Both the position numbers and the translations under genes were made by a program. From Phycisphaerales bacterium UBA1910 (GTDB lineage Bacteria; Planctomycetota; Phycisphaerae; Phycisphaerales; UBA1924), in contig DDGE01000049.1 in assembly GCA_002337545.1 (NCBI GenBank), positions 33,359 through 60,354 on the forward strand: a DNA stretch of 26,996 nt. Reading direction: 5' to 3'. The notes below the pieces were generated by a model. The model was not told where the DNA came from. It worked only from the letters and a program-made list of their open reading frames with translations, and did not search any database. Of the stretch, positions 1 through 26,996 are shown piece by piece. The first letter of the stretch is position 1. Every line of letters starts with the position of its first letter.

Positions 1-18
1 AGCCGGGGGGAATCGAAC
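1..18 (-). repeat. Left attachment site (attL): 3' end of a tRNA/tmRNA
   Basis: The 18 bases are identical to the last 18 bases of the window. Read on the minus strand they give GTTCGATTCCCCCCGGCT, that is a T-loop (TTCGATT), the 3' side of a C-rich T-stem and part of a 3' acceptor strand. At the left end the sequence continues with the complementary G-rich T-stem half (19-24), so the real duplicated core may be longer than the 18 bases visible at both ends. No complete tRNA body follows on the right, so this copy is a 3' fragment and the intact gene should lie beyond the right end. An integrase gene lies about 600 bases inside, as expected for an island border. Confidence 0.8.
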
Positions 19-142: not shown

Positions 143-622
143 TTACGCACTCGCTCGCGTATCTCCACGAAGCATGTTCGTAAAAACAATCTGACCCGTA
201 AGTTCGGGACGAAAATCCTTGAGTATGTAGCTGGACCAATCAGATTGCTCGTTGGATGAATTTGGATTGTCAAAGTGTGCACTCCACCGATTGTTCCTGG
301 TCCAGGCATTGTCAATTAATCCCCGATATCTCGGTATTTCACCATTAGGAATCGACAGCATGCCGTGCCAGTGGGGGTGGTTCCGCTGCTTTCCGTGCTC
401 GAGCACGAAGACTCCATTCATCCTCACGGAATCAGGTTTTTTCGACCACCGGCGGCCCAGTGTCCTTCGAGCAACATAGGCATCCAGTTTCCGCAGTTTC
501 GAGAGCATCGTTTCATTAGAGATCTCGCACCCTGGATATGTTGTAAGCGTGACAAAGAGGTCGGCTTCTATGTCACAGAACATCGAGTGGAACGCTCTTC
601 GAAGCTGGATGTACTCATTCAT
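143..622 (-). CDS. Small HUH-type Rep/relaxase-like protein
   Basis: A 159-residue protein with the three motifs of HUH single-strand nickases in the right order. These are motif I FVTLT (residues 23-27), a histidine motif HPHWHG with H84-W-H86 (residues 82-87), and a YxxK-type nickase motif YILK (Y132, K135). Known HUH proteins nick DNA and form a 5' phosphotyrosine link to start rolling-circle replication or transfer. There is no helicase domain, so host helicase would be needed. The ATG overlaps the stop of the integrase gene as ATGA (619-622), implying translational coupling and a job in the same mobility programme, perhaps replication of the excised circle. The family assignment rests on motifs only; an exact family name is not claimed. 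Confidence 0.65.
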   Translation of the reverse strand: MNEYIQLRRAFHSMFCDIEADLFVTLTTYPGCEISNETMLSKLRKLDAYVARRTLGRRWSKKPDSVRMNGVFVLEHGKQRNHPHWHGMLSIPNGEIPRYRGLIDNAWTRNNRWSAHFDNPNSSNEQSDWSSYILKDFRPELTGQIVFTNMLRGDTRASA

Positions 623-1779
623 GTAGCCACCTCCCGATTATCTGTAGCATCAGAAGCATTCTCGTCTAAATTCGAGTTTTGATCTTCTGGGACCATGTCG
701 GGTAGCTTCACAAGCAGATCGTGGTAGTTAAGGGCCTTCCGGTCAGTGTAGAGGGCATCCGACATCTGAACTGAGGTGTGGCGAGCCAGTTGACGCTTCG
801 TTGCGTCCGAATCCGTAAGCTGATGGATCATGGTCACGAAGGTCTTGCGAAGGGAGTGCATCGTGATACGCGAGCCATCGAAACGTACTTTCTCAATCCC
901 AGCACGCTCGAGATCCTTCCGAAATGTCGCTCGCGTTGGTCTGCCCTTCGGCAGGAGCTTGGCATTCTGATTTCTGCCAGCGATCAGACGCTCTATCACA
1001 ATGATCAGCTGGCTCGGTATCTCGATGTACTCGAATCTCCGAGCCTTTGACTCATCCTCCTTGAGGCAGATCCAGCTTCGTCCTTTCTCGTCAGTGGTAA
1101 TGCTGTCAACCTTGAGTCGGCTGACCTCAATCGCTCGCAACCCAGTGCAAAGCATGATCGCGTAGAAATCGCTCCGGTACTCCGGACAGGATTGGAGGAG
1201 GCATTTGGCTTCCTCTGCAGTGAGTGCTCCTGGTGGCACAGACGGTGTATTCGTATTGCGGATACGCCTCAGATTTGTGAGCGGGATTTCCTCTGTATAT
1301 CCCTCATCAAAGAGCCAGCGACAAAAAGATTTAAAAGTAGTTTGATAGTGACTCTGGGTCTTTGGCGACCATTGTTGTTTGCTTCGCATCCATTCCTGGT
1401 ACTCGGCTCGATTAATGTGACTGAGCTTCGTCCAATTGAGCTCTGCCAAGCCATCCGAGAGTCTCTGGCGTACCTTCCGGTAGTGTTCTCGGATTGTTCC
1501 CTTCTCAATCAGAAATTCGATGTATTCATCAGCATAACCCGTGAGCTCACGTGCACCGATGGATCGTTCTCGATCGGTGACATAGAGCCCAGAGCGTTTT
1601 TTCTCTTCATTTCTGATGTAGTCTTTGGCTCGTGTCTCGGCGGTTCGCTTATCAGCGGTACCAAGTGTGATTTCGACAGGCTTTTCATCACCTTCGAATC
1701 GATGCTTCAGGTAATAGTTCTTTGATAGCAAAGACTTGCCAGTTCGAGGGCATTTTCTCTTTTTCTTGTTGATGCTCAT
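619..1779 (-). CDS. Tyrosine recombinase / phage-type integrase
   Basis: A site-specific recombinase of the lambda integrase family that would insert and excise the island at the tRNA-like end. Counting from the chosen start (386 residues), the catalytic set is visible: R215 in CTGLRAIEV, H308 and R311 in MHSLRKT, H334 in ARHTS and nucleophile Y344 in DALYTD. Residues about 80-165 form a SAM-like core-binding domain. The start ATG at 1779 is preferred over one 21 bases upstream because GGAGGTG sits just before it and it overlaps the excisionase stop as ATGA. All catalytic residues are present, so it is probably active. It lies next to the left attachment site, the usual arrangement. Confidence 0.95.
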   Translation of the reverse strand: MSINKKKRKCPRTGKSLLSKNYYLKHRFEGDEKPVEITLGTADKRTAETRAKDYIRNEEKKRSGLYVTDRERSIGARELTGYADEYIEFLIEKGTIREHYRKVRQRLSDGLAELNWTKLSHINRAEYQEWMRSKQQWSPKTQSHYQTTFKSFCRWLFDEGYTEEIPLTNLRRIRNTNTPSVPPGALTAEEAKCLLQSCPEYRSDFYAIMLCTGLRAIEVSRLKVDSITTDEKGRSWICLKEDESKARRFEYIEIPSQLIIVIERLIAGRNQNAKLLPKGRPTRATFRKDLERAGIEKVRFDGSRITMHSLRKTFVTMIHQLTDSDATKRQLARHTSVQMSDALYTDRKALNYHDLLVKLPDMVPEDQNSNLDENASDATDNREVAT

Positions 1780-1991
1780 CCCGCACCTCCGATCGACCAA
1801 GTGCCGTGAGCGATGAAGTGCTCAATGGCTGACGTCGGGATGAGTCTGCGTCCTCCCAGTTTCCATGACGGGATAGTTCCTTCTTCTATCCTTCTATGCA
1901 CAGTACGGGAGCTGATGCCGAGATATTGAGCAGTGTCGGCAACACTGATTGTGGCGGAACCTCGCCAGGGATATACGTTTGATTTAATCAT
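1776..1991 (-). CDS. Excisionase-like helix-turn-helix protein
   Basis: A 71-residue basic protein with a MerR/AlpA-type winged helix motif: VADTAQYLGISSRTVHRRI followed by the wing WKLGGRRLIP. Such proteins bind DNA to direct excision or regulate the integrase gene. An AAGGAG ribosome site lies six bases before the ATG. The stop overlaps the integrase start (ATGA), so it leads a coupled three-gene set with the integrase and the HUH protein. Its upstream region carries inverted repeats that could be its own binding sites. It could be only a repressor of integrase expression; the fold call is firm, the excisionase role is inferred from context. Confidence 0.85.
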   Translation of the reverse strand: MIKSNVYPWRGSATISVADTAQYLGISSRTVHRRIEEGTIPSWKLGGRRLIPTSAIEHFIAHGTWSIGGAG

Positions 1992-2229: not shown

Positions 2230-2261
2230 GGGTTGGGTTATTTTTGGAGAGTAATTGCTCA

Positions 2262-3875
2262 ATGGCGAAGAAGAAAACAAAAAAAAAGAAGTCGAAGCCA
2301 CAAGCGACTCTCGGCTTTGAAGAAAAACTCTGGCTCGCGGCAGACAAACTACGTGGATCTATCGATGCCGCGGAGTACAAGCATGTGGTGCTCGGGCTGC
2401 TCTTCCTGAAGTACATCTCCGACGCCTTCCAGGCTCGCCGGGAGGAGCTTGAGGCCCTGACCACCGACCCCAATTCCGACTACTTCACTGACGGCGACAA
2501 GGACTGGGCGAACCAGACCCTCGAAGACCGAGACGAGTACGCATCGAAGAATGTCTTCTGGGTGCCGCCAGAGGCTCGTTGGAAACAACTCCAAGCTCAA
2601 GCCAAGCGTCCTGATATCGCCAAGCTTATAGATGACGGCATGTACGCCATCGAGCGGGACAACCCCCGCCTCAAGAACGTCCTACCCCGTGACTACGCCC
2701 GCCGTGGCATCCCCGCCGAACGCCTCGGCGAACTCATCGACCTGATCTCCGGCATCGGGCTCGGTGACAAGGAGTCGAGGGCCAAGGACATCCTCGGGCG
2801 GGTCTACGAGTACTTCCTCGGCAAGTTCGCCGCCGCTGAAGGCAAACTGGGTGGCGAGTTCTACACGCCCCGCAGCATCGTCAAGCTCTTGGTCGAAATG
2901 ATCGAGCCGTTCAAGGGGAGGGTCTATGACCCCGCTTGCGGCTCGGGTGGGATGTTCGTGCAGGCCGAGCGATTCGTCGAGGCCCACGAGGGCAAGGCGA
3001 CCGACATCTCCATCTACGGCCAGGAGTCCAACCCGACGACCTGGAAGCTCGCCAACATGAACCTGGCCCTTCGGGGCATCGAGGCTCACCTCGGCGAGAA
3101 GCACGCCGACACCTTCCACAACGATTTGCACAAAGATCTGAAGGCCGACTTCATCCTCGCCAACCCGCCGTTCAACGTCTCCGACTGGGGCGGCGAACGA
3201 CGCCGGGAGGATGTCCGCTGGAAGTACGGCACGCCGCCGGTCGGCAACGCCAACTACGCCTGGATCCAGCACTTCATCCATCACCTCGCCCCCAACGGTA
3301 TCGCCGGGTTCGTCATGGCGAACGGCTCGATGTCCTCCAACTCGGGCGGCGAGGGCGACATCCGCAAGGCCCTCGTTGAGAACGACCTCGTCGATTGCAT
3401 GATCGCCCTGCCCGGCCAGTTGTTCTTCACGACCGGCATCCCCGTCTGCCTCTGGTTCGTGACCCGCAGCAAGGCGGGCGGCACGCTCGGTGGCAAGAAG
3501 CTGCGGGACCGCCGCAAACAGACGCTCTTCATCGACGCCCGTAAGCTCGGCTCGCTCGTCACTCGGACACTCCGTGACTTCTCCGAAGAGGAGATCGCCC
3601 GCATCGCCGAGACCTACCACGCCTGGCGAGGCGAGGACGGCAAGTACGAGGACATCGCCGGATTCTGCAAGTCGGCAACGGCTAAGGAGATCGATAGTCA
3701 CGGCTTCGTGCTGACGCCCGGTCGGTATGTCGGAGCTGAAGATGTCGAAGACGACGGCGAGCCGTTTGAGGAGAAGATGGCTCGGCTGACGGCAACTCTT
3801 CGAGAGCAGTTTGACCAATCAAACCGGCTACAGGAAACGATCTCGCATCATCTGATGGATCTGACAAATGGATGA
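2262..3875 (+). CDS. hsdM: Type I restriction-modification DNA methyltransferase subunit HsdM
   Basis: N6-adenine methyltransferase subunit of a type I system, which protects host DNA at the sequence chosen by HsdS and joins the restriction complex. The N-terminal HsdM helical domain is seen at about residues 20-160. The AdoMet-binding motif [10 protein letters not shown] starts at D223 and the catalytic NPPF is at N301. The ATG at 2262 is preferred (537 residues) because a GGAGAG lies ten bases upstream and an upstream TTG start has no ribosome site. The first residues are a lysine-rich tail. The end overlaps hsdS by eight bases. GC content in the body is clearly higher than in the flanking integrase and lipoprotein genes, which suggests a separate origin. 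Confidence 0.97.
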
Positions 3876-5136
3876 TGCGTTCCCTTCAGAATGGGATGCC
3901 CGTCCTGTTGCTGACTGCATGTCGGCAATTATCGACTACCGAGGAAAGACTCCAAAGAAGTCGCCGGTCGGGATTCCGCTGATCACTGCGAAGATCGTCA
4001 AGGGTGGGCGAATTCTAGATGTGTCTGAGTTCATTCCTCCCGAAGACTACGACAGTTGGATGAGGCGGGGACTTCCTGAGCCAGGCGATATCGTGGTGAC
4101 TACCGAGGCACCGCTCGGCGAGGTTGCTCAGCTTGACGGTCGGAAAGTAGCACTCGCTCAGCGAATCGTGACCCTCCGAGGAGAGTATGGTGTTCTCGAC
4201 AATGACTACCTGAAATTCGCAATGCAGTCAGCCTTTGTGCAAGGGCAACTGCTGGCGAGAGCGACGGGTACGACCGTCGTCGGCATCAAACAGCGGGAGT
4301 TGCGGCAGGTTCTCATCCCACTCCCGCCAATCGAAGAGCAGCGAGCCATCGCCTTGGTCCTTGGCTCGCTCGACGACAAGATCGAGTTGAACCGGCGGAT
4401 GAACCGCACGCTGGAGCAGATGGCGGCGGCGATCTTCAAGGCGTGGTTCGTGGACTTCGAGCCCGTCCGAGCCAAGGCCAGCGGGGCCGCCTCCTTCCCC
4501 GGCATGCCCCAGCCCGTCTTCGACGCCCTCCCCGCCACCTTCGCCGACTCCGAGCTTGGGCCGATTCCGGAGGGGTGGAATTTAAAGCCGCTGAAGGATG
4601 CCACATGCCTCACTATGGGCCAGTCACCCAAGTCGGAGTTCTACAACACGACGGGCGATGGACTGCCGTTCCATCAAGGCGTTACGAACTATGGGGAACG
4701 CTTCCCAGTTCACAAGACGTACTGCACTGTCGAGAAACGGGTTGCCGAACCTGGCGACATTCTCTTCTCCGTGCGAGCGCCTGTTGGTCGCATCAATGTC
4801 GCCGATGAACGCTTGATCGTAGGACGGGGGCTCGCCGCTATTCGGCACAACCAAGACTGGCAGTCGTTCATGCTCTACGCCCTTAAGCATCAGTTTGCCG
4901 AAGAAGACTCGATCGGGGATGGCACGATTTTTACGGCAGTGACGAAGAAGGACATGGAAGGCATCCGGATTGTCGAGCCGACAGAAGCCATTGGAATTGG
5001 CTACGAAAAGCTGGCATCCGCCATCGACCAGCAGATCGGGCTTAACGATAGGGAGTCACGGACGCTCACCGAAACTCGGGATGCTCTGCTGCCGAAGCTG
5101 CTGTCGGGCGAGGTGCGGGTTAATCCAGAACAATGA
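3868..5136 (+). CDS. hsdS: Type I restriction-modification specificity subunit HsdS
   Basis: DNA-recognition subunit of 422 residues with the usual two target-recognition domains. TRD1 is about residues 1-150; the central conserved helical spacer includes [23 protein letters not shown] and [16 protein letters not shown] (about 152-205). TRD2 starts at [11 protein letters not shown] (about 232) and ends with the terminal repeat [14 protein letters not shown]. Both TRDs look intact, so a bipartite target is expected, though it cannot be read from the sequence. The start codon overlaps the end of hsdM. The central spacer is much more GC-rich than TRD2, which suggests domain exchange by recombination. 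Confidence 0.96.
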
Positions 5137-5150
5137 TAAAAGGTGAAAAC

Positions 5151-5654
5151 ATGCGTATGAGATCATATATCTTGGCTTACTTATCTTTATCAATCCTATT
5201 GCTCACCAGCGGATGCGAGGTTTACCCTGGGAATTATGCAGGGAGTTCGAGCGGAATATACAGCAATCCGTACTCCGCTCCCACTAGTCGCACTGCGACA
5301 ATCATGATCTCATCAGAAATCACTGACGGCACACGAAGTACAGATGAAAACGGTCAGTCGACTGTTGAGCTCACTGTTTATGTAAAGGGCGAAGGCGAGC
5401 CGCTGGGTTATTACCAAAGCTCAACCCTGTATCTGAATTCGTATGGCATTGGGGTAGCTGAAGATAGTAGTACCTGGTTTAATATCTCAGGCATCTCAGA
5501 TGGCTGGCCGTCGAGCTATCTTGTTTCTGCTGAGTATGTCGATTACGGCTCTCATGGCGGCGAAGTGCTTGTCAAAGTAAAGATCGATGATGTAAGCCAT
5601 AGGCGCTATGGTGAGCATGTGTATTCTCAGAGCCACTCATTGAGTTGGGAGTAG
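5151..5654 (+). CDS. Small lipoprotein of unknown function
   Basis: Not recognised as a known family. The N-terminus is a lipoprotein signal: positively charged start, hydrophobic stretch and lipobox LTSGC with the lipidated Cys at residue 22. The mature part is Ser/Gly/Tyr-rich, then a likely all-beta domain. The ATG at 5151 is chosen for the AAGGTG six bases upstream. An ATG at 5133 overlaps the hsdS stop (ATGA) and is in the same frame, so translational coupling is possible either way. A membrane lipoprotein inside a type I restriction operon is odd; it is less GC-rich than hsdM and may be an inserted passenger gene. Confidence 0.75.
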   Translation: MRMRSYILAYLSLSILLLTSGCEVYPGNYAGSSSGIYSNPYSAPTSRTATIMISSEITDGTRSTDENGQSTVELTVYVKGEGEPLGYYQSSTLYLNSYGIGVAEDSSTWFNISGISDGWPSSYLVSAEYVDYGSHGGEVLVKVKIDDVSHRRYGEHVYSQSHSLSWE

Positions 5655-5719
5655 CATTCAACATCTGAATCTCACATCAACTTATGGACATCATTTCCAC
5701 TAGTACCTAGGCGGTTTAT

Positions 5720-6184
5720 ATGGAGTATCACGATCTTGTAAAAGATTTCGCTGACCGTACACGAAGCAACTTACAACTCGTAAGAGAACGTGCTGAATCC
5801 GGAGGCAAGGCTTACGAGGTAACGCAGCTCATCAACTCCATGCTTGGACTTCTCGTCTTTCCTCAGCAGCGGTACTATCAGAATGTTCCAAAGTGGACCA
5901 TGGAGCAACTTAGACAAAAGGGCTGGCCGGAACCCGTTCTGACTGGTGACATTGGCAAGCCCAATGATCTTCAAGAGCTGTTTCGCTATCTCCGAAATGG
6001 GATCACCCACTTCAACATGAAGTTCACAGATAGCGGAGGGGTACTCGATGGGGTCGTGATATGGAATCATGAAGGTGGTAGTTCCAAGAATCCAAAGAAC
6101 TGGCAGGTGACACTTCACCTTGATGAACTCGCTGACATCACGGATAGGTTTGTTCAACTGATGCTGGGAAGTTCGCAGCCGTGA
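5720..6184 (+). CDS. HEPN-domain protein (probable RNase toxin/accessory)
   Basis: A 154-residue mostly helical protein with the HEPN signature Rx4H as RNGITH (R92, H97) in [16 protein letters not shown] proteins with this motif are metal-independent RNases found as toxins and as accessories in type I restriction and CRISPR loci. It resembles the pEK499_p136-type HEPN group that accompanies restriction genes. Its stop overlaps the hsdR GTG start (GTGA), so it is translated with hsdR. Likely role (inference): RNA cleavage or growth arrest when restriction fails. No separate antitoxin is seen nearby. Confidence 0.75.
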
Positions 6185-9100
6185 TACAGAAGCTAAACGA
6201 GTTAGTAGTCGAGAATGCTGCCCTTGAGTGGTTCGAGGGACTCGGCTATTCCATTGTACACGGGCCAGAGATTGCCCCCGATGCTGCAGGATCTGAGCGA
6301 GCAAGCTACGCCGATGTCCTGCTCGTTCATCGCCTCCGAAACGTCCTCTTCAAGCTGAACCCTGACATCCCCTCCGAGTGTCTTGAAGAGGTCATTAAAC
6401 GGCTCCAACGCCCTGAGCTCCCGACCCTGATCGAGAATAACCGTACGTTTCACTCACTGCTTCGAGATGGAGTGGATGTCGAGTACCGTCTCCCCGATGG
6501 CTCATCCAAGGGTGACAAAGTCTGGCTGTTCGACTTTGAAAACCCCGATCGCAACGATTGGCTCGCCGTAAACCAGTTCACAGTCTTAGAGAAGATCGGT
6601 GCCAACCAGCACGACCGCCGCCCTGATGTCGTCGTATTCGTCAACGGCATCCCGCTGGCCGTCATTGAGTTGAAGAACGCCGCCGATGAGGATGCTGACA
6701 TCTGGACCGCCTACAAGCAGCTCCAGACCTACAAAGCAGAGATCCCGAGCCTGTTCGTATCGAACTCATTGCTGCTCGTCAGCGACGGTCTCGATGCCCG
6801 TATCGGTTCACTGACAGCGGGCAAAGACCGATTCACGCCTTGGCGCACTGCGGATGGCGAGGAGACCGCCCCAAAGACCCAGCCGCAACTCGATGTAGCA
6901 ATCAAGGGCATCTTCGACCGACGCTGGTTCCTCGACTACATCCGCAACTACACTGTCTTTGAAACGAGTGACGAGAAGGTCATCAAGAAGATTGCCGCCT
7001 ATCACCAGTTCCATGCTGTGCGGAAGGCCGTCGGGGCAACGGTCACGGCTTCACAGCCGAGCGGAGACAAGCGTGCTGGTGTCATCTGGCACACCCAAGG
7101 GTCCGGCAAAAGTCTGACGATGCTGTTCTACGCTGGGCGGCTCATCGAGCAGTCCGAGCTAGAGAACCCGACTGTGGTTGTCTTGACTGACCGTAATGAT
7201 CTTGACGGTCAGTTGTTCTCAACCTTCGCAGAGGGAAAGGCGATCCTCAGACAGACTCCGGATCAAGCGGCCGATCGGACAAGCCTTCGAGATCTGCTGA
7301 AGCGAGCGAGCGGCGGCGTCATCTTCACGACGATACAGAAGTTCCTCCCTGACGAACGAGCAAGCGAGCACCCACTGCTTTCTGACCGGAGAAACATCAT
7401 CGTGATCGCCGACGAGGCGCACCGCAGCCAGTATGGATTCAAGGCGAAGATCGACAAAGAGACTGGGCAGATTGGCTATGGCTTCGCCAAGTATTGCCGA
7501 GACGCCCTTCCCAACGCCACATTCATTGCCTTTACAGGAACTCCTGTTGAACGCACAGATGTCAGCACACGAGGGGTCTTCGGTAACGAGATTGATGTCT
7601 ACGACATCGAGCAGGCTATCGAGGACAACGCCACCGTCCCCATCTACTACGAGGGTCGCCTGGTCAAGCTCGGACTCGACGCAGCCGCTGCGGATTCGCT
7701 CGATGAGGAACTTGAGGAGCTGACCGAGGGTGAAGAGGACACCTCCAAAGAGAAGCTCAAGACCAGGTGGGCGGCGTTGGAGGCGATCGTCGGCTCGGAT
7801 GAGCGGATCAAGCAGGTGGCCGAGGACATCGTGGCGCACTTCGAGGATCGACAGTCCGCGATGGAGGGCAAGGCAATGGTCGTTGCCATGTCTCGCCGGA
7901 TATGTATGGCCCTTCACGATGCCATCGTCGAACTCCGCCCGGACTGGTACCACGACGATGACGACAAGGGGGCCATCAAAGTCGTGATGACGGGCAACGC
8001 CAGCGAAGGCCCAGAGATCGCCAAGCATGCCCGCAACAAGTCGCGTCGAGAAGATCTCGCCAAGCGGTTTAAAGACCCCAACGACCCGCTCAAACTCGTG
8101 ATCGTCCGAGACATGTGGCTGACTGGCTTCGATTGTCCGTGCATGCACACGCTCTATATCGATAAGCCAATGCGTGGTCACGGCCTGATGCAGGCAATTG
8201 CGAGAGTGAACCGGGTGTTCCGAGACAAGCCCGGCGGTCTTGTGGTTGACTACATCGGTATCGCCGACCAACTCAAGAAAGCCCTCTCGACGTACACCGA
8301 GAGCGGCGGTCAGGGCCGCACCACGGTTGATCAAGATGAAGCTGTGGCCATCATGCAGGAGAAGTACGAGGTCGTGGTTTCCATGTACCACGGCTTCGAC
8401 CACAGCCGGTTCTTCTCTAACAAGGCCTCAGAACGGATGGCGGTTATTCCGGAAGCCATTGAACACGTCTTTGCCTTGGAAGACGGTAAGTCACGCTACC
8501 TTCAGGCTGTTCTTGAACTCTCGAAGGCGTTTGCCCTCGCAGTCCCGCACGAAAAGGCGCTCGCCATTCGTGACGATGTCGGATTCTTCCAAGCCGTGAG
8601 AGCAGGCATAGTGAAAGCAACCGTTCCAGGCAGTAAATCACCAGAAGATCTGGATACAGCCGTGCGGCAGATCGTATCGAAGGCTGTAGCTTCGCAAGGG
8701 GTTGTGGACATCTTCGCCTCTGCGGGGCTAAAGAACCCTGACATCTCGATCTTGTCAGATGAGTTCTTGGCTGATGTCCAGAACATGCCCCAGAAGAACC
8801 TCGCATTGGAGATGCTTCGCAAGCTCATCAATGACGAGATCAAAGTCCGAAGCCGCAAGAACATCGTCCAAGCTCGTTCTTTCAGAGAGATGCTCGAAGG
8901 CTCAATCAAGAAGTACCAGAATCGCGGAATCGAAACTGCAGAAGTTCTTCAAGAACTCATCGATCTTGCTCAACGAATGCAGGAAGCGAAGCAAAGAGGC
9001 GAGCAGCTTGGGCTCAATGAGTCAGAAGAGGCGTTCTACGATGCATTGGCAAACAATAAGAGTGCTGTCGAAGACCTCGGAGACGACACGCTGAAGACGA

Positions 9101-9300
9101 TCGCTCGCGAGCTTGCGGAGCGTATCCGGAAGAGTGCAACGATAGATTGGACAATTAAAGAGACCGTTCGAGCCGAGATGCGAGCAATGGTCCGACGATT
9201 GCTCCGGAAGTATAAGTATCCACCAGATCAACAAGACGCGGCAACTGAGCTCGTCTTGCAGCAAGCGGAGACTCTTGCTGGGGATATCGCAAGAGATTAA
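6181..9300 (+). CDS. hsdR: Type I restriction endonuclease / translocase subunit HsdR
   Basis: The 1039-residue motor and nuclease subunit, of normal length. The N-terminal PD-(D/E)xK nuclease shows D149 (RRPDVVVF) and E163-L-K165 (VIELKNA). The SF2 helicase follows: Walker A TQGSGKS (K310), DEAH box at 411-414, AFTGTP motif III near 450, and motif [10 protein letters not shown] at 671-678. A C-terminal helical domain would contact HsdM. The start is GTG overlapping the HEPN stop, with GGGAAG eight bases upstream. All catalytic motifs are present, so with hsdM and hsdS the system is probably complete and able to cut unmodified foreign DNA. Confidence 0.97.
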
Positions 9301-15045: not shown

Positions 15046-15085
15046 ATCCCGTTGTTTCCTGCAACAGTGATTTGAGAGGTGTATT

Positions 15086-15745: not shown

Positions 15746-15783
15746 TTTTTCGATTGCGTACGCGATCGATTTGATTTTGCTAC

Positions 15784-15823
15784 AGGCAAGCTTCGGCTGG
15801 GGGGGGGGCGAAGCTTGCCTTTT
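15784..15823 (+). terminator. Intrinsic terminator after the dockerin gene
   Basis: A perfect 12-bp stem, AGGCAAGCTTCG (15784-15795) with CGAAGCTTGCCT (15809-15820), closes a 13-base loop that contains ten consecutive G (15799-15808). It is followed by TTT. The stem is self-complementary enough to act on both strands, but the T tail favours the plus strand. It separates the signalling block from the nuclease block. Confidence 0.85.
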
Positions 15824-15890
15824 ACATGCTCTTATCAAAAAGGAATTACTCCAGAGCTGAACTGTTACGGCTGCGATTACTAGGCTGCAT

Positions 15891-17333
15891 ATGGCAAGAC
15901 AGATGATCAGGAAAGAAGTATTCCTCGCTGCGATCAAGTGTTCGACGCAGGGTTGGTATGTCATGCAGGATCGTGGTGGAGTCCCTACACATGGTGAGAG
16001 ACTACGGATGGATGAAGGCAAAGAGGTCCATGACAGGGCTCGAAGTCTTCATCCCAATGGTGTCTACGCAGGCTCAGTCGAGAAGACCAAGACGCTAGTA
16101 GCCGATCCAAGGCAAGAAGTCATTTTTGAAGCAGAGTTTCAGATCAATGGATATGTAGCTCGTGCAGATTGGATCCGCCGTGTTGAAGGTGGTTGGGTAA
16201 TCGGTGAAGTGAAATCAAGCCTTATTAGTGACGAGAGTCCAAAGGCTGAGCACATCGATGATCTTGCATACACATGCATGGTTCTTCGGCGATCAGGACT
16301 CGCGGTTCAGTCATGTGAGCTTGTGCTCATGAACCGAGATTGGCGTATTGGCCAGCCAGATTCTGAGTTGTTTGTAGTTCTAGATCTCACTGAGAGTGTG
16401 TTTGACAGAGCACAAGGATTCGATCAGAGTTGTGACAAACTGAGATTGTCCTTGCTTGATGATGGCATTCCACCTCCTCATATGTGTTATGCCTGCCGAA
16501 AATGCGAGTTCTTCAGGTCTGATTGTGTTGGAGCAGGTATCAAGGATTCAATCTTCTATCTCCCCAACCTGAGAGAGGGGAAGTTCCACCAGTTGAACTC
16601 GCAAGGCATCGTTTCGATTCATGAGGTCCCCAAGAGTTCTGAGCTTACTGATTATCAGTCAGCTGTTGTCAGAGCGATTCAAACCGGGAAGCCGGTGATT
16701 GATCGTGAAGCAATCCAAGCATGTATGCATAGACTGAGATGGCCTGTGGGCTATCTCGATTTCGAGACTATCAAGGCCGCTATACCTTTGTATCCACGAG
16801 TTGCACCACATGAGCAGGTTGTGACGCAGTACTCGCTACATATTCAAGAGGGCTTGGAGTCAGATCTCGAGCATACTGATTACTTGGCTGATCACAGAAT
16901 GGACTGTAGAGAGCAACTTGCCATGCAGCTTCTTGCTGATACGAAGAGTTGTGAGAGCGTGATCACTTACAGCTCATTCGAGAAGACCACCATCCGAGGT
17001 TTAGCGAAACTGTATCCAGAGCACTCGAATGAGTTGCATATGCTTGAGGACAAGCTCATCGATTTACTGCCGGTAGTGCGTAATGGAGTGGTCCATCCCG
17101 ACTTCATGGGGCGTAGCAGCATTAAAGCTGTGCTACCAGTTCTAGTTCCAGAGATGTCCTACAAAGGGCTTGAAGTAGCTGATGGCGATACTGCCATTGC
17201 CGCATTTGTCAGTCTTGCTTTGGGGAAGGTACAGCCGGATAGAGTGCAAGATATACGTGATTCTCTACTGGAGTACTGCAAACTGGATACTCTTGCGATG
17301 GTCCGAGTTCTTGAGGCACTTAGGCAGTATTAA
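15891..17333 (+). CDS. Cas4-like nuclease fused to DEDD exonuclease (DUF2779 type)
   Basis: A 480-residue protein with two nuclease halves. The N-terminal half is Cas4/RecB-like: D93 in VARADW and E106-V-K108 in GEVKSS form the PD-(D/E)xK site. C17 with C199, C202, C205 and C212 have the spacing of the Cas4/AddB iron-sulphur cluster. The C-terminal half is a DEDD RNase-H-fold exonuclease: D290 and E292 in YLDFETI, SFEKTT in the middle, and D466 in EYCKLDTLAM. This arrangement fits DUF2779-containing proteins. It should trim DNA or RNA from ends. No CRISPR array or cas1/cas2 is present. It lies upstream of the AAA+ and helicase genes on the same strand, separated by 271 bases with a promoter candidate. 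Confidence 0.82.
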   Translation: MARQMIRKEVFLAAIKCSTQGWYVMQDRGGVPTHGERLRMDEGKEVHDRARSLHPNGVYAGSVEKTKTLVADPRQEVIFEAEFQINGYVARADWIRRVEGGWVIGEVKSSLISDESPKAEHIDDLAYTCMVLRRSGLAVQSCELVLMNRDWRIGQPDSELFVVLDLTESVFDRAQGFDQSCDKLRLSLLDDGIPPPHMCYACRKCEFFRSDCVGAGIKDSIFYLPNLREGKFHQLNSQGIVSIHEVPKSSELTDYQSAVVRAIQTGKPVIDREAIQACMHRLRWPVGYLDFETIKAAIPLYPRVAPHEQVVTQYSLHIQEGLESDLEHTDYLADHRMDCREQLAMQLLADTKSCESVITYSSFEKTTIRGLAKLYPEHSNELHMLEDKLIDLLPVVRNGVVHPDFMGRSSIKAVLPVLVPEMSYKGLEVADGDTAIAAFVSLALGKVQPDRVQDIRDSLLEYCKLDTLAMVRVLEALRQY

Positions 17334-17421
17334 GCAGTGGAACTAGGCAAGGTAGTTCAGCACTTCACAGCAGTAGTTGCTGGAGTGTGAAATCGAACTG
17401 ATTGAGTTTGTACGAACGAGC

Positions 17422-17449
17422 TTGACTAATCGAAAGCCAGAAATAAAAT
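17422..17449 (+). promoter_or_regulatory. Sigma-70-type promoter candidate for the AAA+ gene
   Basis: TTGACT (17422-17427) and TAAAAT (17444-17449) are separated by 16 bases. Transcription from here would leave a leader of about 150 bases before the AAA+ start codon. The gap between DUF2779 and AAA+ genes (17334-17604) holds no other convincing feature. Confidence 0.55.
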
Positions 17450-17604
17450 TTTGGCTCGCCGAAGCAAGTCGCATATCAGGATCAGATTGAATGATCCTCT
17501 ACGCAGTCCGGCAGCTTCCGGGTTGATCAGTTTTCAACGAGAAGATGCCTGTGTGTTTAACACGAACACCAGGCTGGGATGTCTACGTACACCAAAGGAG
17601 AAAC

Positions 17605-18882
17605 ATGCATCAAGATCAGATCGTCCCCACAGCCTCACAGAACGACATGGCAACAGAACAGATGAAGTTGCCAGGGAGAGAAAAGCGGCTGAGTTTTTCT
17701 CAAATTCTTGAGATTCAGCGGCACGATCGAGAGCAAATGCGTGTTGTCCATCATTGGACTGGTTCATCACCAGGTAGCGAAGATATCGAGATGAGTATGG
17801 GGGTCGGAAGAGTGGTTGCCGGCAGTATCCCTGACTTTTTCAAGTCCTCTGGGGTGCGAGTGCATTACATCGATGGGATAAGGGGATGCCCACCAAGATA
17901 TCGAAGCGAGTACCGTGACGCATCATGCCATCAGATTCCTCAGGATGTGATCTACTTCGTTGAGGATGCAGATAAGGGCGAGCGATTTGTGTTGGAGGTT
18001 GAGACAGATCGATCTGGAGACATGGAGTTTCGCATCTACTCCTCCGTTGCCTCCATTTGGTTTACTCGAATATTTGAGTTTGTACGAGACAACAACTATC
18101 TGCGAGGAAAGGTTTTCGATCTTGATGGAAAGAAAGCGGATATCGGTGAGATATCACTCGATGATGTAGTCCTCACGCACAAGCAGCAGGAGTTGATACA
18201 GAGACATGTAATCGGGTACGCCCAAAGGCTTGCAGAACTCGTATCACGAGGTGCGAGGGGTCAACGAGGGGTACTCCTAGAGGGTGTGCCAGGGTGCGGC
18301 AAGAGTATGCTGATCAAGGGCATAGCAAACACACTCTCCGAAGTGTCAGTGTGTATCGCTGGTCCGGATCAGATCAGCAGATATGGAAGCGTTGATGCAC
18401 TAGAACAGTTCGTGCGATTGACTGCACCCTGCGTGGTTGTCATCGAAGAGATTGACATCTTTGGTGCAGATCGACGCATTGGTGGTGGAGTCGGGATGGC
18501 GGAGCGAATGCAACTCATGGATGGATTGAGAAGTGTTCAGGGCGTGCTCTGGCTCGCAACAACGAATAGGCCAGAAGTAGTTGAGCAGGCACTCGCGGAT
18601 CGGCCAGGTCGATTTGATCGGCGTGTTAAGTTTGGGCCATTGCCCCTAGGAGAGCGAACGAGACTCATGGAGCAACTCGTAATGCCTTGCGCCCTTTCGG
18701 ATGACGGGCTTGATTTGGCAGTGAAGTTGACTGATGGCATGACCGGTGCACAAATGCGAGAGCTAGCGGAGACGCTACGAATCCTCTTTGAGCGGGATGT
18801 TTATTCAGCGACAGATGTAGAGCAAGCGTGGGAGGATTGGATTTTTGATAGAGGGAGCGTGATTGGCTTTAGCTGTCGATGA
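17605..18882 (+). CDS. AAA+ ATPase (FtsH/Cdc48-type core) with novel N-terminal domain
   Basis: A 425-residue protein. The C-terminal AAA+ core has Walker A GVPGCGKS (G227-S234, K233), Walker B VVVIEEID (277-284), sensor ATTNRP (318-323) and arginine finger region RPGRFDRR (333-340). The lid domain follows (TGAQMRELAETL). The N-terminal 200 residues are not recognised; they contain a likely beta-rich part and read like a substrate- or partner-binding domain. There is no protease domain, so it should remodel or unload a partner. ATG at 17605 is chosen for AAAGGAG five bases upstream. It is followed after 75 bases by the giant helicase gene on the same strand. Confidence 0.88.
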   Translation: MHQDQIVPTASQNDMATEQMKLPGREKRLSFSQILEIQRHDREQMRVVHHWTGSSPGSEDIEMSMGVGRVVAGSIPDFFKSSGVRVHYIDGIRGCPPRYRSEYRDASCHQIPQDVIYFVEDADKGERFVLEVETDRSGDMEFRIYSSVASIWFTRIFEFVRDNNYLRGKVFDLDGKKADIGEISLDDVVLTHKQQELIQRHVIGYAQRLAELVSRGARGQRGVLLEGVPGCGKSMLIKGIANTLSEVSVCIAGPDQISRYGSVDALEQFVRLTAPCVVVIEEIDIFGADRRIGGGVGMAERMQLMDGLRSVQGVLWLATTNRPEVVEQALADRPGRFDRRVKFGPLPLGERTRLMEQLVMPCALSDDGLDLAVKLTDGMTGAQMRELAETLRILFERDVYSATDVEQAWEDWIFDRGSVIGFSCR

Positions 18883-18897
18883 CTGAGATTTCAGCTA

Positions 18898-18926
18898 TTT
18901 ATACCTAGCTCATCATAGTGTATAAT
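18898..18926 (+). promoter_or_regulatory. Promoter candidate overlapping the start of the giant helicase gene
   Basis: TATAAT (18921-18926), preceded by TG, gives an extended -10 (TGTATAAT). TTTATA (18898-18903) lies 17 bases upstream as a weak -35. The first in-frame ATG (18925) falls inside the -10, so transcription from here would start around 18933 and force use of the ATG at 18958. Confidence 0.45.
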
Positions 18927-18957
18927 GAAGGAGGCCAATTTTCATACGGATCGTATC

Positions 18958-21900
18958 ATGACGGACGCCACTACAATCGGTTCTGATGAAGCACGCACTC
19001 GAGTATCGATGTCCATCGATTCTGTGAAAAAAACTACATTTGCTGCAGCCCAGAATGCTGTGCCCATTCTGAACCGAGTTGCAATCCAGAATAATGGCGA
19101 TACTCCCTACAAGAATCTCCGGCTCACCATGCAGCCGCAGCCTGCCTTTTGCAAAGCCAAAGAGTGGGTGATTGACAGAATCCCAGCTCTTGATGAAATC
19201 GATATCACTGATAAGCAAGTGACACTCGATTTCAGTGTGCTTGATCGACTCAACGAAGCAGAACATGGGCAGTTAACCTTCACACTATTCGACGGTGAAG
19301 AGATGCTGATTGAGCAAGTTGTGCCGATTGAGCTTCTTGCACGCGATGAATGGGGCGGCTCGACAGAGATGTCGCAAATCTTGGCAGCATTCGTGTCGCC
19401 AAATCATTCACAAGTATCGCACATTCTAAAAGAAGCCTCGTGGCTGCTCGAAAAAAGTGGGCATAACAGTGCTTTGGATGGCTACGTGTCACGTGATCCA
19501 CGGCGTGCCTACATGCTTTCTGCAGCAATCTGGTCGGCAATCAGCGGTATGGGGCTTTCCTATGCTCAGCCTCCAAGCTCCTTTGAGAAGCAAGGCCAGA
19601 AAATCCGGGATCCAGGGTGCATTGCTAGCACAGGTCTAGCAACTTGCCTGGACTCCTCGCTTCTCCTTGCAGCGGCGTTTGAGGCTATCAAACTGAACCC
19701 CGTCGTGATTTTCACACGTGGCCACGCATTTGTAGGCGTCTGGCTAGTCGACAAGACATTCCCAATGACAGTTGAGCGTGATGTTACAGAAGTCAGAAAA
19801 GCTGTGAGTTCAAGGGAGTTTCTTGTCCTGGAGTCCACATTGCTCACACACCGTCCAACCGTTGGATTTGAGAATGCCAAGGCAAATGCACAAGATCAGC
19901 TTTCGGATGATCGCGACAATGAGTTTGTCATGGCTATCGATGTCGCTCGAGCACGTGCCGCGGGAATTCGCCCAATATCGAATCAGCAGGTATCTACTGT
20001 CGAGGCTGATGACAGTGATTATGCTGTAAAACCAGCTGCGTTGCCGAAGCTTCCGAGCTTTGAAATGATCCCGAGTGAGTTCGCTGAGGAGCTTTCAGCA
20101 ACTCCTTCCGACCGCTTGGATCGATGGCAAAAGAAGCTATTAGACTTATCTCTTCGTAATCGATTGCTAAACTTCTCTGATAGCACCAAGCAAACTCTTA
20201 GGCTGGTTTGTGCTGATGTGCCATCACTAGAGGACGCCCTTGCTGACGGGAAAAAATTCAGAGTTGTTTCCCTGAAAGATGAGAATCCAATCGGTAATCG
20301 GGATCCCAAACTCTACAAACAGCAAACCGGACGCGATATCCAAGAGGAGTTCGCCAATACAGCATTTACTAAAGGCCAAGTATGTGCTGATGAGTCTGGA
20401 AAAGAAATGAAGTCAAGACTCACCACGCTTTACAGGAAAGCCAAGAGTGATCTTGCAGAAGGCGGAACCAACACCCTGTTTATGGCAGTTGGTTTTTTAC
20501 GTTGGAAGAAGGATGAGAAAGATCCTAGAGCGTACAAGGCTCCATTATTGCTTCTCCCCATAAAACTCACGAGGAGATCAGCAAAATCCAGCTACTACAT
20601 TTCTCACCACGAAGACGATGTGGTTTTCAACCAGACACTCCTTGAGTATCTTGAGCAGGAGTTTGGTCTAGCGATTCCCTCACTTAGAGGCGAGCTTCCT
20701 ACAGACCAATCGGGCCTAGACATTCAGTTAATTTTCGAGATGATGAGACAGGCGGTTCGGGATGTTCCCGGCTTTGAAGTGATAGAGAACATCGCTGTTT
20801 CAACCTTCTCGTTTGCAAAATACTTGATGTGGAAAGACTTAGTTGATCGCACCGACAGTCTCAAAAACAACCGGCTTGTTCGACATCTTTTAGAGAATCC
20901 AACGGAGGTCTTTTCTGATGGCAGCGGTGAGTTCCCGACTCCTGATAGCATTGATCAAAAAGTAGATCCAAGTAGCTTGTATACGCCACTACCCGCTGAT
21001 AGCTCTCAGCTTGCAGCTGTGGTTGCAGCAGAGTCTGGCAAAGATTTTGTGATCATCGGTCCACCTGGCACTGGAAAGAGTCAGACGATCGCAAATGTGA
21101 TTGCTCATTGCCTTGCTCATGGGAAGACAGTTCTTTTTGTAGCCGAAAAATCAGCGGCACTGGATGTTGTGTACAGGCGATTGAAAGCTTACGGACTAGC
21201 AGATGCTTGCCTTGAGTTGCATTCAAACAAGACCGATCGCAAGTCAGTAATCTCACAGTTGGGTGCAGCGTGGGATCGATCCTCCCGAGCAGATGAACAA
21301 GAATGGCTCCGCTTAACCAACGATCTAAAGATTCAGCGTGATGAGCTTAATCTGTATGTCAGTGAACTTCACCGTCCGGGGAGTCATGGCTATAGCGTAT
21401 ACGAGGGCATTGGAATACTGTCTGCGAACTCGCCAAGGTTTGAGCTCAATTTCAGGGGAGTAGAGTCACACGATCAAGAAAGTTTTTCTTCACTCATTGA
21501 GCTTGTTGAACGCTTGTCCATCACACATACTGCTGTCGAGAACTGCAGCTCACTACACGGAATTCAAAAGACTGAATGGTCGTTTGAGTGGCAAAAGAAA
21601 CTACTCAAATCAGTATCTGAGTTCCATGATGAAACGGTCGCATTGCTCGCATCGTGTAATCAGCTCAAGGAGAATCTCCTAATCTCTGAGTGTCCAGAGT
21701 GTCCAGGAAAACATCTTTCCGCATTACTGGGACTAGCAAAGTCGATCTGCAAGACTGCTAGTGGAGATTTCGGATTTGCTTTATCTACGGATCTCAGCTC
21801 ATATGCCCAATGCATAGATCTACTTGAGAAGCAAATAGGTGAGTACAAACAGGCTAAGCAAATCATCCAAGCTGAATATGAAGACGATGAAGTTCTTCGC

Positions 21901-24843
21901 ATTCCACTGGAAGATCTCGATAGAGATTGGCGATCTGAATCAGCAAAAATTTGGCCAATGTCAGCACTCGGTAAACGCCGCATACAACGCATTCTTCAGA
22001 GCTATGCATCAAGCGGTGTCGCAAATCCCGAGGTAGATCTCGCGGAACTTCGCAAAATCAAGAGAGTACTGGAATCAGTTGAGAAAAGCATCCTAAGTTC
22101 GATTCCCGGATTCGAGGGTGTTCAATCAAATGTCGCTCAACTCAGGGATCTCGTATTAGTCGCTCTCGAGTTTAACGAGTCTATTTCTACACTCAAATCA
22201 ACGATATCGATTTCGTCGAACATTGAGACCGAACTCAAACGGATCCTTGATCCTGGATCAGATTCATTGGCAGCTGTTTCATCAGCAAAGGAACTCCGTG
22301 AGGCTAAGCGTCGATTCGATCAAGCTGGGAGGTCTTATGTGTCTCTTACAGAGAGCAATCTAGAAGTTCTAACTCTCCAGAGCCTCATCGATGAGCTCAA
22401 GGGAATTGCGGCTCAATCTGATGGGTTGAACAACTGGGTAAAATGGGTAAAAGTTCGTAATGAGGCATCACTGCGAGGCTTGGATCCATTGATTGAGGCA
22501 TTGGAGTCTGGGAGTCTACTGGATGCGAAATCAGAGTTCATGTCGGCATACTTTAGTTGGTGGCTGCCACTCGCTATCGACCAAAGACCGAAGCTTCGCA
22601 GTTTTGCTCACTGGGAACAGGACAATCAAATCGAGACGTTCCGTGAGTTAATCGAGTCTGTTCAGGAGCTCGCAGCAATCCAGGTACGCCGATCGGTCTC
22701 GCATAACCTACCGGCACGTGATGGTGTTCCTCGGAAATCAGAACTCGGTATGCTCAGGCATCAACTTGGACTCCAAAGACCGAGTCAATCAATCCGTGGT
22801 CTGATTGAAGGCATGCCAGATGTGTTCACAAAGCTGACGCCATGTGTGCTGATGTCTCCTCTATCCGTTGCCCAATACCTTCCAAGTGAACAGGCAACAT
22901 TTGATATCGTGATCTTTGATGAAGCCTCCCAAATCACTACCTGGGATGCAGTGGGTGCGATTGCTCGCGGGCGACAGTCAATTATTGTTGGGGATCCTAA
23001 GCAACTTCCTCCTACCAACTTCTTTGGTCGTACCAATGACGAAGAAGAAGAGGAGCTAGCAGCCCATGAACGGGATCTCGCGAGCATTTTGGATGAAGCG
23101 TCAGCGGCAGGTCTACCACTCCATCAATTGAACTGGCACTATCGAAGCCGTGATGAAGATTTGATCGCATTTTCAAATTATCACTACTACGACCAGCGTT
23201 TGGTCACGTTCCCCTCTCCGACCACCGACTCTAAAGCTGTTCAGTTTCACAAAGTTGATGGCATATACGCACGCGGATCTGGGCGTACTAATGAGGTTGA
23301 GGCGAAGAGGGTTGTTCAATACCTCATTGCGAGATTGGAAAAGTGGGTTCAGCTTCCTGAAGAAGACAGACTGTCCATTGGTGTCATCACGTTCAATGCT
23401 CCACAGCAGGAGCTAATTCTTGATCTCTTGGATCTTGAGCGATCAAAACGCCCGGAACTCGAGTGGTTCTTCTCTGACGACAGGGAGGAGCCCGTGATCG
23501 TTAAGAATCTAGAGAATATCCAAGGCGATGAACGCGACGTTATGATCTTTTCAATCACTTTCGGCAAAGATCTTGCCGGCAAACTCCCTATGGATTTTGG
23601 TGCGGTAAACAAGCAAGGTGGTGAGAAGCGATTAAACGTCGCTGTAACGAGAGCCAAATCAGAGTTCCATATATTCTCTTCAATCTCGGCAGAAGAAATC
23701 GACCCAAGTCGAGCAAAGGGGCTTGGTGTTCAGCATCTAAAGAACTACCTTGATTACGCACAACGTGGTGCCGTCGCTCTTCCTGCAATGGATGAAGGGT
23801 CGCTTGGGCCAGCTGAGAATATGTTTGAAGCGTCAGTCGCTGAAGCTTTAAGATCTAGAGGATGGGAAGTTCGCACTCAGATCGGAGTATCAGGTTTTAG
23901 AATCGATCTGGGGGTAGTCCACCCGGATCATGCAGGGGCATTCCTGGCTGGTGTCGAGTGTGATGGGGCGACCTATCACAGCTCAGCAACCGCTCGAGAT
24001 CGTGATCAGATACGTGAAGGTGTGCTTCGACATTTAGGGTGGGAAATTCTCCGTGTGTGGTCAACCGAGTGGTTTATGCATCCACAGCCTGCTTTGCAAA
24101 GACTCGATGAATCACTCAACGAGTTACTCGAACTGAGCAGAGCAGAACAGAAGGATGAGCCAGATTTACAAGATAGCGAATCCGATACAGATTTTGATGA
24201 GGAAACAAACAGACATCAAGAATCATCAATTGATCCTGAGTCTTCACTCAATGAGACCGAACTCGAGCTGGATCTTGATGAGTGTACAGATTCTCAGGAG
24301 CTTCCTCAGTACGCGGCACCATCATCTGGTGCCATTGAGACAGGAACTACACTCAATGCCGAATTGCTTGATGAGTTTCCCATTGATCCTGAGCGCTTCT
24401 TCGAGTGGAACTACACCCAGACACTCAAATCTGTAGTTTCCCGTGTTGTGTCTGAACAAGGACCAATCTCTGAGTCCATGCTCTACAGGGCGATCGCAAA
24501 AATTCATGGATGGCAACGGGCAGGCAAGCGGATTCAGACGCGGGTACATGATTGTCTTGGCGATAACGAGCAGCACGAAGAAAATGGGAATGTATTCATC
24601 TGGGCAGCTGGGACTTACGCTGAATCCATTGCATTCCGGCCCCATATAGAGAGAACGTCTCGAGATATCCCTCGTGCTGAGATCTTTGGTCTCATCAAGG
24701 AACAGCCGCACATACTCAATGCCCCTGATCAAGCAAAAGAACTTGCCAACTTGATTGGGCTTGGGAGGCTTTCTGAGGATACCCGCAAGTATCTGGATTT
24801 ATGCTTGAGCGAATTTGAAGACAAAGACCTTGCAGATGAATAG
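18958..24843 (+). CDS. Giant DUF4011-SF1 helicase-Vsr-like nuclease-DUF3320 protein
   Basis: Numbered from an alternative ATG at 18925 (1972 residues; 1961 from 18958). Residues about 230-310 look transglutaminase-like: C241 in ATCLDSS, H267 in TRGHAFVG and an acidic residue near 301. The DUF4011 signature RWQKKLLDLSLRNRLLNF begins at about 402. The SF1 (Upf1-like) helicase has Walker A GPPGTGKS near 712, DEAS near 1332, VGDPKQLPP near 1355 and NVAVTRAKSE near the end, with a long helical insert between Walker A and B. A Vsr/DUF559-like nuclease spans about 1632-1712 (D1661, E1678-C-D1680, ILRVWSTEWF). After an acidic linker, DUF3320 is at about 1834-1880. Such proteins occur in defence islands. 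No strong ribosome site marks either start. Confidence 0.9.
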   Translation: MTDATTIGSDEARTRVSMSIDSVKKTTFAAAQNAVPILNRVAIQNNGDTPYKNLRLTMQPQPAFCKAKEWVIDRIPALDEIDITDKQVTLDFSVLDRLNEAEHGQLTFTLFDGEEMLIEQVVPIELLARDEWGGSTEMSQILAAFVSPNHSQVSHILKEASWLLEKSGHNSALDGYVSRDPRRAYMLSAAIWSAISGMGLSYAQPPSSFEKQGQKIRDPGCIASTGLATCLDSSLLLAAAFEAIKLNPVVIFTRGHAFVGVWLVDKTFPMTVERDVTEVRKAVSSREFLVLESTLLTHRPTVGFENAKANAQDQLSDDRDNEFVMAIDVARARAAGIRPISNQQVSTVEADDSDYAVKPAALPKLPSFEMIPSEFAEELSATPSDRLDRWQKKLLDLSLRNRLLNFSDSTKQTLRLVCADVPSLEDALADGKKFRVVSLKDENPIGNRDPKLYKQQTGRDIQEEFANTAFTKGQVCADESGKEMKSRLTTLYRKAKSDLAEGGTNTLFMAVGFLRWKKDEKDPRAYKAPLLLLPIKLTRRSAKSSYYISHHEDDVVFNQTLLEYLEQEFGLAIPSLRGELPTDQSGLDIQLIFEMMRQAVRDVPGFEVIENIAVSTFSFAKYLMWKDLVDRTDSLKNNRLVRHLLENPTEVFSDGSGEFPTPDSIDQKVDPSSLYTPLPADSSQLAAVVAAESGKDFVIIGPPGTGKSQTIANVIAHCLAHGKTVLFVAEKSAALDVVYRRLKAYGLADACLELHSNKTDRKSVISQLGAAWDRSSRADEQEWLRLTNDLKIQRDELNLYVSELHRPGSHGYSVYEGIGILSANSPRFELNFRGVESHDQESFSSLIELVERLSITHTAVENCSSLHGIQKTEWSFEWQKKLLKSVSEFHDETVALLASCNQLKENLLISECPECPGKHLSALLGLAKSICKTASGDFGFALSTDLSSYAQCIDLLEKQIGEYKQAKQIIQAEYEDDEVLRIPLEDLDRDWRSESAKIWPMSALGKRRIQRILQSYASSGVANPEVDLAELRKIKRVLESVEKSILSSIPGFEGVQSNVAQLRDLVLVALEFNESISTLKSTISISSNIETELKRILDPGSDSLAAVSSAKELREAKRRFDQAGRSYVSLTESNLEVLTLQSLIDELKGIAAQSDGLNNWVKWVKVRNEASLRGLDPLIEALESGSLLDAKSEFMSAYFSWWLPLAIDQRPKLRSFAHWEQDNQIETFRELIESVQELAAIQVRRSVSHNLPARDGVPRKSELGMLRHQLGLQRPSQSIRGLIEGMPDVFTKLTPCVLMSPLSVAQYLPSEQATFDIVIFDEASQITTWDAVGAIARGRQSIIVGDPKQLPPTNFFGRTNDEEEEELAAHERDLASILDEASAAGLPLHQLNWHYRSRDEDLIAFSNYHYYDQRLVTFPSPTTDSKAVQFHKVDGIYARGSGRTNEVEAKRVVQYLIARLEKWVQLPEEDRLSIGVITFNAPQQELILDLLDLERSKRPELEWFFSDDREEPVIVKNLENIQGDERDVMIFSITFGKDLAGKLPMDFGAVNKQGGEKRLNVAVTRAKSEFHIFSSISAEEIDPSRAKGLGVQHLKNYLDYAQRGAVALPAMDEGSLGPAENMFEASVAEALRSRGWEVRTQIGVSGFRIDLGVVHPDHAGAFLAGVECDGATYHSSATARDRDQIREGVLRHLGWEILRVWSTEWFMHPQPALQRLDESLNELLELSRAEQKDEPDLQDSESDTDFDEETNRHQESSIDPESSLNETELELDLDECTDSQELPQYAAPSSGAIETGTTLNAELLDEFPIDPERFFEWNYTQTLKSVVSRVVSEQGPISESMLYRAIAKIHGWQRAGKRIQTRVHDCLGDNEQHEENGNVFIWAAGTYAESIAFRPHIERTSRDIPRAEIFGLIKEQPHILNAPDQAKELANLIGLGRLSEDTRKYLDLCLSEFEDKDLADE

Positions 24844-25009
24844 ATGATTGAGTAGTTCGTATCTCACTCTCTCGTGGTATTAGCATGCCAGCCGTTTGGG
24901 ACAGCAATGTGTTAGAAACCAGATAAATCACTCCTGTTTATAAACCACACGCTGCGAAGGCACACTTGCTTGGAGTGTTCTGTCTGGCCTGCTACTCATG
25001 ATTCTACAT

Positions 25010-26978: not shown

Positions 26979-26996
26979 AGCCGGGGGGAATCGAAC
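26979..26996 (-). repeat. Right attachment site (attR): 3' end of a tRNA/tmRNA
   Basis: Exact repeat of bases 1-18. Just left of it, TGG (26976-26978) completes the minus-strand 3' end as ...GGCTCCA, which has U70 and A73 as in alanine tRNAs and tmRNA. The gene body would continue beyond the window on this side, so this is probably the intact target gene and the island was inserted at its 3' end. Confidence 0.8.

Follow-up and report, generated by a model that had tools for sequence, protein, structure and literature searches.

The stretch of DNA analysed here (the window, 26,996 nucleotides) comes from the planctomycete Phycisphaerales bacterium UBA1910, where it spans C44:33359-60354 of a 3.5-Mb assembly in 71 contigs that is 88% complete; named homologues agree with this placement in the Phycisphaerales. 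It carries three plus-strand open reading frames (ORFs) at 15891-17333 (480 amino acids, aa), 17545-18882 (445 aa) and 18925-24843 (1,972 aa), which an earlier note had put forward as an undescribed three-gene defence system. Pfam and PADLOC confirm that the three same-strand genes are real and were correctly outlined, as a Cas4/DEDD nuclease, an AAA ATPase and a 1.97-kilo-residue DUF4011 helicase with a Vsr-like nuclease (Table 1). Their grouping, judged from sequence, looks like a chance arrangement on a mobile island and not a new system, because the helicase belongs to the ProA family, which is already named and occurs without the other two genes. We estimate a probability of about 0.8 that the ProA ortholog acts alone as a helicase-nuclease and that the nuclease and the AAA ATPase travel on the same island as separate cargo.

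The assignment of the 1,972-aa helicase to ProA, a named anti-phage family and so not an undescribed one, is based on a score of 2,091.9 bits against NCBIfam NF058533 (antiphage_ProA), which passes the curated cut-off of 1,500. The alignment is near full length, with residues 39-1947 on positions 2-1902 of the 1,903-position profile. PADLOC candidate PDC-S37 matches with 1,188 bits over residues 395-1968, and the N-terminal 394 residues lie outside this match. The earlier note was right to connect the helicase with anti-phage defence; its description of the system as undescribed is not supported. The DUF4011 anti-phage protein Hhe (NCBIfam NF042953) has a related helicase-nuclease part; the score of 797.9 bits is far under the Hhe cut-off of 2,000, and membership of that family was rejected. 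ProA may correspond to the DefenseFinder system Prometheus.

The helicase and nuclease motifs of ProA are intact as judged from the alignment of the window protein with seven other planctomycete homologues (A3, eight rows), to which it is 31-74% identical. All eight rows have identical Walker A and DEAS motifs, and GDPKQLPP and NVAVTRAK (motifs III and VI) show small changes across them; in the nuclease domain E1678 is present in 8/8 rows and D1661 in 7/8. The family is large, with 1,688 relatives at E<=1e-100 among the 7,991 database candidates scored. It also extends to plasmids: at this threshold relatives occur in 77 plasmid records, and in 61 of these the match spans at least 80% of the query.

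Conservation of the triplet, which the earlier note had named as decisive for its proposal, was examined by sequence in 60 relatives together with the window's own genome, and in a second sample of 293 genomes of the phylum, some of them shared with the 60. The phylum searches scored the best 2 to 5 first-look candidates per genome and used the same sample for all three genes. The three genes were found together in 0/60 relatives and 0/293 phylum genomes, and the triplet was not found in any other genome searched. Among the relatives, the helicase is present in 18/60 and the DUF2779 nuclease in 4/60 (G002, G003, G047, G056), both at E<=1e-3, and the AAA family proper in 5/60 at E<=1e-80 (G008, G009, G014, G016, G041); weaker matches at E>=1e-22, many of them in open frames near 700 aa, were assigned to other AAA proteins. 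In the phylum sample the helicase was detected in 67 genomes (E<=1e-100), the nuclease in 10 (E<=1e-20) and the AAA ATPase in 1 (E<=1e-35). Where two of the genes share a genome they lie apart. The AAA and helicase genes are about 16 kb from one another on opposite strands in G009 (helicase match 41%) and on different contigs in G041, while nuclease and helicase are separated by about 74 kb in G056 and by 3.8 Mb along the contig in G156, and are on different contigs in G083 and G268.

The surroundings of ProA lead to the same result. We read 24 helicase loci by tblastn, 7 in relatives (L033-L037, L051, L052), 13 distant (L100-L112) and 4 on plasmids (L195-L198, from the 77 plasmid records), with 6.0-10.3 kb of upstream DNA in 23 loci and 0.35-9.8 kb downstream. 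Neither the AAA nor the DUF2779 protein had a match at E<=1e-3 in the flanks of any of the 24. All five helicases scored against the ProA profile pass its cut-off (L033, L034, L035, L051 and L195, the last on a Thioclava plasmid). The three closest relatives, at 73%, 66% and 64% identity by tblastn (L033, L034 and L035), have DUF2130 and type I restriction-modification genes, GmrSD, and DUF2130 with an OLD-type nuclease as their respective neighbours, which places ProA in defence islands with changing company. At two of the four plasmid loci (L197 and L198, on Sinorhizobium and Mesorhizobium plasmids), genes annotated as 'DNA repair exonuclease' lie beside ProA. By sequence, the triplet is not a conserved unit, and an undescribed three-gene defence system was rejected since no other genome searched and none of the 24 helicase-locus flanks contains it.

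The nuclease gene likewise occurs in varied settings. PADLOC Cas4 models match residues about 17-209 weakly (best E 1.2e-6), and DUF2779 covers residues 288-410 (E 1.3e-31). The protein holds the Cas4-type residues E106-x-K108 and cysteines 17, 202, 205 and 212, and the DEDD-type residues D290-x-E292 with a final D466. In alignment A2 the former residues are kept in all four rows that cover this part (two of the six rows do not), and the latter in 6/6. A second copy in the window's own genome, at C59, is broken by internal stops. The three annotated nuclease loci all have different neighbours: a recombinase-type gene and an SNF2 helicase (L043), a C5 methylase (L044), and an M78 peptidase with DUF2130 (L045). 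The AAA and helicase genes are absent from the flanks read by tblastn at all five nuclease loci (L043-L047), and viral contigs queried with the nuclease as a single protein gave 0 loci.

The AAA gene more likely starts at 17605 (425 aa) than at 17545, where the ORF begins, because AAAGGAG precedes the ATG there and the database prediction P0009 begins at the same position. The AAA domain (Pfam E 2.7e-17) is preceded by some 200 residues, as the earlier note stated. It had called this N-terminal part unrecognised; the best structural matches of the whole-protein model are Bacillus subtilis YjoB and Bcs1 (Foldseek, VIA), in which the N-terminal domain is matched only as part of the whole. The aligned range is 43-414 with a root-mean-square deviation (rmsd) of 6.2, and the likeness is distant, at ~20% identity, an rmsd of about 6 angstrom and template-modelling (TM) scores of about 0.5 or less. 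IetA is the closest PADLOC family for the AAA part (45-50 bits). Membership of IetAS was rejected: IetA scores 45.5 bits against an NCBIfam cut-off of 510, no subtilase was found among the window proteins scanned, and the neighbours of the AAA gene are the DUF2779 nuclease and ProA. The sole protease match among these proteins is a trypsin-like gene at 14227-15045. In the nuclease-protease pair of PMC12799240 the nuclease is a metallo-beta-lactamase (MBL)-type hydrolase, and the protease downstream of it is fused to a defence enzyme; the layout around the trypsin-like gene differs from this one, and such a pair was rejected.

By sequence the family of the AAA gene is rare, with 31 proteins in the database search. 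Nuclease and helicase are absent from the flanks read by tblastn at all five AAA loci in relatives (L038-L042); three of the ten AAA and nuclease loci (L038-L047) are on short contigs of 5.7, 6.1 and 11.0 kb. A scan of genome contigs confirmed 143 AAA stretches, and of the best 80, which were used, 0 have a helicase or DUF2779 match at E<=1e-6. Within these 80, four loci (L113-L116) match the query over the N-terminal domain and AAA at 43-59% and one (L117) over the AAA part only at 61%, these five lying in the same five genomes G008, G009, G014, G016 and G041. L118 is a partial match at 32%; the remaining 74 rows, at 26-37%, are almost all confined to the AAA part. Viral contigs contributed six AAA loci at 26-33%, one of which (L199) extends into the N-terminal domain. 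Four neighbours of the L118 and L199 AAA genes were scanned and gave one Pfam match, to a glycosyltransferase. A genome-contig scan with P0003 as query confirmed no relative.

The loci in three congeners suggest another arrangement, in which the AAA ATPase forms the centre of a separate small defence module with varying nucleases, and ProA merely lies downstream. In G008, G009 and G016 a 225-aa gene with an RCQL[V/I]H motif stands next upstream of the AAA gene (about 0.4 kb, same strand), and a 415-aa PDDEXK_1 gene with weak Cas4-model scores diverges from it; a close relative of this nuclease (E<1e-190) occurs in just these 3/31 genomes. The partners would then be an RX4H (HEPN-like) protein and a divergent Cas4-like nuclease in the congeners and the Cas4/DEDD nuclease here, and the closeness of the AAA part to a defence family, IetA, fits such a role. 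The RX4H reading was made by eye, however, and Pfam and PADLOC have no match for the 225-aa protein. The 415-aa and DUF2779 nucleases share no convincing profile similarity (hhalign E 0.094, 16 columns), the three congeners may represent a single shared arrangement, and the AAA loci of G041 and G014 have neither gene, G014 having the AAA part without the N-terminal domain. We consider this module improbable as an account of the window. In the congeners themselves, the order at L038:9922-13743 is the 225-aa RX4H gene, AAA and a helix-turn-helix (HTH) gene, the last seen in L038 and L039, with the divergent Cas4-like PDDEXK_1 gene beside them, possibly a separate module. The 415-aa nuclease also has a weak match at plasmid locus L197 (23% identity, E 6e-5).

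A lineage-specific system of two or three genes would instead make the AAA ATPase, with or without the nuclease, a newly acquired accessory that modulates ProA in this planctomycete. A gap of 42 bp separates the AAA and helicase genes, which share a strand, and accessory genes are known to join existing defence systems, as PMC12799240 reports for nuclease-protease pairs. Against this, no second occurrence was found in the two genome samples or the helicase-locus flanks. The gap of 271 bp between nuclease and AAA, counted from 17605, also holds a promoter-like site (17422-17449) and a terminator-like hairpin (17504-17525), because of which one transcript over all three genes is not evident. This evidence is weak: across 13300-26996 shuffled sequence gave on average 14.0 promoter-like sites and the real sequence 8, and for terminator-like sites the figures were 10.7 and 17. 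On balance we give the accessory-gene explanation little credence.

Several points nevertheless weigh against the solitary action of ProA. The closely spaced AAA and helicase genes may be co-transcribed. A lineage-specific pairing of the two keeps some plausibility, because locus contexts were read for a minority of the 31 AAA-family proteins, and four of the five relatives with AAA loci are from one genus. In each genome searched, scoring was limited to the few best first-look candidates, and the upstream flank of L052, on the side where the nuclease and AAA genes of the window lie, is only 0.6 kb long. Literature searches on ProA yielded no experimental paper that we recognised among the matches listed.

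If ProA acts alone, its motifs suggest that the superfamily 1 (SF1) helicase would engage phage DNA, either invading or in replication, and translocate along it, and that the C-terminal Vsr-like nuclease would cut the phage DNA. The N-terminal head, comprising an immunoglobulin (Ig)-like and possibly a transglutaminase-like domain, would have a sensing or regulatory role, and it may be a peptidase. The nuclease and AAA genes, probably expressed independently, would have been placed beside ProA by turnover of the island.

The model of this head shows an Ig-like and an alpha/beta domain with a mean predicted local distance difference test (pLDDT) score of 87. C241 is conserved in 17/17 rows and H267 in 16/17, while position 303 has E in 14 rows and D in the other 3; Pfam has no match to this Cys-His-(Glu/Asp) region. 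The order of these residues resembles the Cys-His-Asp core of the transglutaminase type. The first Foldseek matches of the model, at E about 1e-4, TM about 0.2 and a large rmsd, include a putative protease and transglutaminases 2 and 3. The VIA list has no row over the putative catalytic core, and the transglutaminases in it are aligned by way of their beta-sandwich domains, with model residues 16-139, which counts against the likeness. The transglutaminase likeness of the predicted head is thus suggestive. A stronger form, in which ProA proteins are single chains of three activities, with a working transglutaminase-type cysteine peptidase (C241, H267, E303) joined to the helicase-nuclease and with proteolysis of self, host or phage protein as part of sensing or killing, strikes us as doubtful.

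Table 1. Features of the window. Positions are those of the window; residues are those of ProA.
Feature	Position	Strand	Basis or remark
Left att-like direct repeat	1..18	.	ssrA 3' end, identical to 26979-26996
Tyrosine integrase of the island	619..1800	-	Pfam Phage_integrase E 9e-11
Type I restriction-modification genes	2244..9300	+	PADLOC/profile matches
hsdM	2244-3875	+	
hsdS	3868-5136	+	
173-aa ORF		+	Inside the type I block, listed between hsdS and the HEPN-type ORF
HEPN pEK499_p136-type gene	5720-6184	+	Within the type I genes, directly before hsdR
hsdR	6181-9300	+	
Cas4-like + DUF2779 (DEDD) nuclease, 480 aa	15891..17333	+	Read as independent gene
YjoB/Bcs1-like AAA ATPase, 425 aa from likely start	17605..18882	+	Read as independent gene
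ProA-type anti-phage helicase-nuclease, 1,972 aa	18925..24843	+	NCBIfam NF058533, PADLOC PDC-S37
ProA Ig-like beta-sandwich (predicted), residues 27-137	19003..19335	+	
ProA possible transglutaminase/cysteine-protease-like domain (predicted), residues 146-345	19360..19959	+	C241, H267, E303
DUF4011, residues 404-576	20134..20652	+	Pfam E 1.6e-48
SF1 helicase, residues about 690-1585	20992..23679	+	Pfam AAA_11, AAA_12, AAA_30; Walker A 712-721, DEAS 1332-1335
Vsr-like nuclease REase_MTES_1575, residues 1634-1731	23824..24117	+	Pfam E 4.4e-34
DUF3320, residues 1824-1871	24394..24537	+	Pfam E 4.7e-12
Right att-like direct repeat	26979..26996	.	ssrA 3' end

The three genes share the window with hsdM, hsdS and hsdR, an integrase and terminal ssrA repeats, in agreement with the earlier note, which had put them in a mobile island next to a type I restriction system. 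The first and last 18 bp of the window are identical to each other and to positions 330-347 of the 350-nt transfer-messenger RNA (tmRNA) gene at C44:32483-32832. The terminal repeats and the integrase make an ssrA-targeting island of about 27 kb, apparently complete, or its circular form the best reading of the window. Two N's stand directly left of the window start, and the window end is the end of the contig. Any exact integrated layout is tentative, given that the N's mark an assembly join and that the intact ssrA copy, ~0.5 kb to the left, has its 3' end pointing away. A subterminal 25-bp near-repeat (60-84 and 26817-26841, 22/25 identical) perhaps represents integrase arm sites; it has no further copy in the window's own genome and 0 in 20 relatives at <=2 mismatches from the pattern. 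An Rfam scan of the window returned no match.

Elsewhere on the island, a 520-aa ankyrin-repeat protein (9462-11024; PADLOC PDC-M72A, 205 bits) is encoded between hsdR and a sigma factor gene. The DUF2130 gene at 25010-26404 on the minus strand is split over two separate ORFs and looks broken, because L035 and L045 carry it as one ORF (476 and 472 aa); these copies adjoin the helicase in L035 and the DUF2779 nuclease in L045. The seven genes from a Ser/Thr kinase (11758) to the helicase (24843) are all on the same strand, and one could take them for a single operon and system, given that MADS and other defence systems include kinases and that the kinase scores 95 bits with the MAD6 model, far under its cut-off of 460. 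At the 24 helicase loci, however, these genes yield a single match, a kinase with 29% identity beside L112. We regard this reading as highly improbable and rejected the operon, as the block was not found at the other loci read.

Taken together, these results keep a false three-gene system out of the catalogue of defence systems and locate ProA within a planctomycete island of 27 kb whose end repeats are defined. The conserved Cys-His-(Glu/Asp) head of ProA, which is unannotated, adds a new detail and offers a testable feature of a large family.
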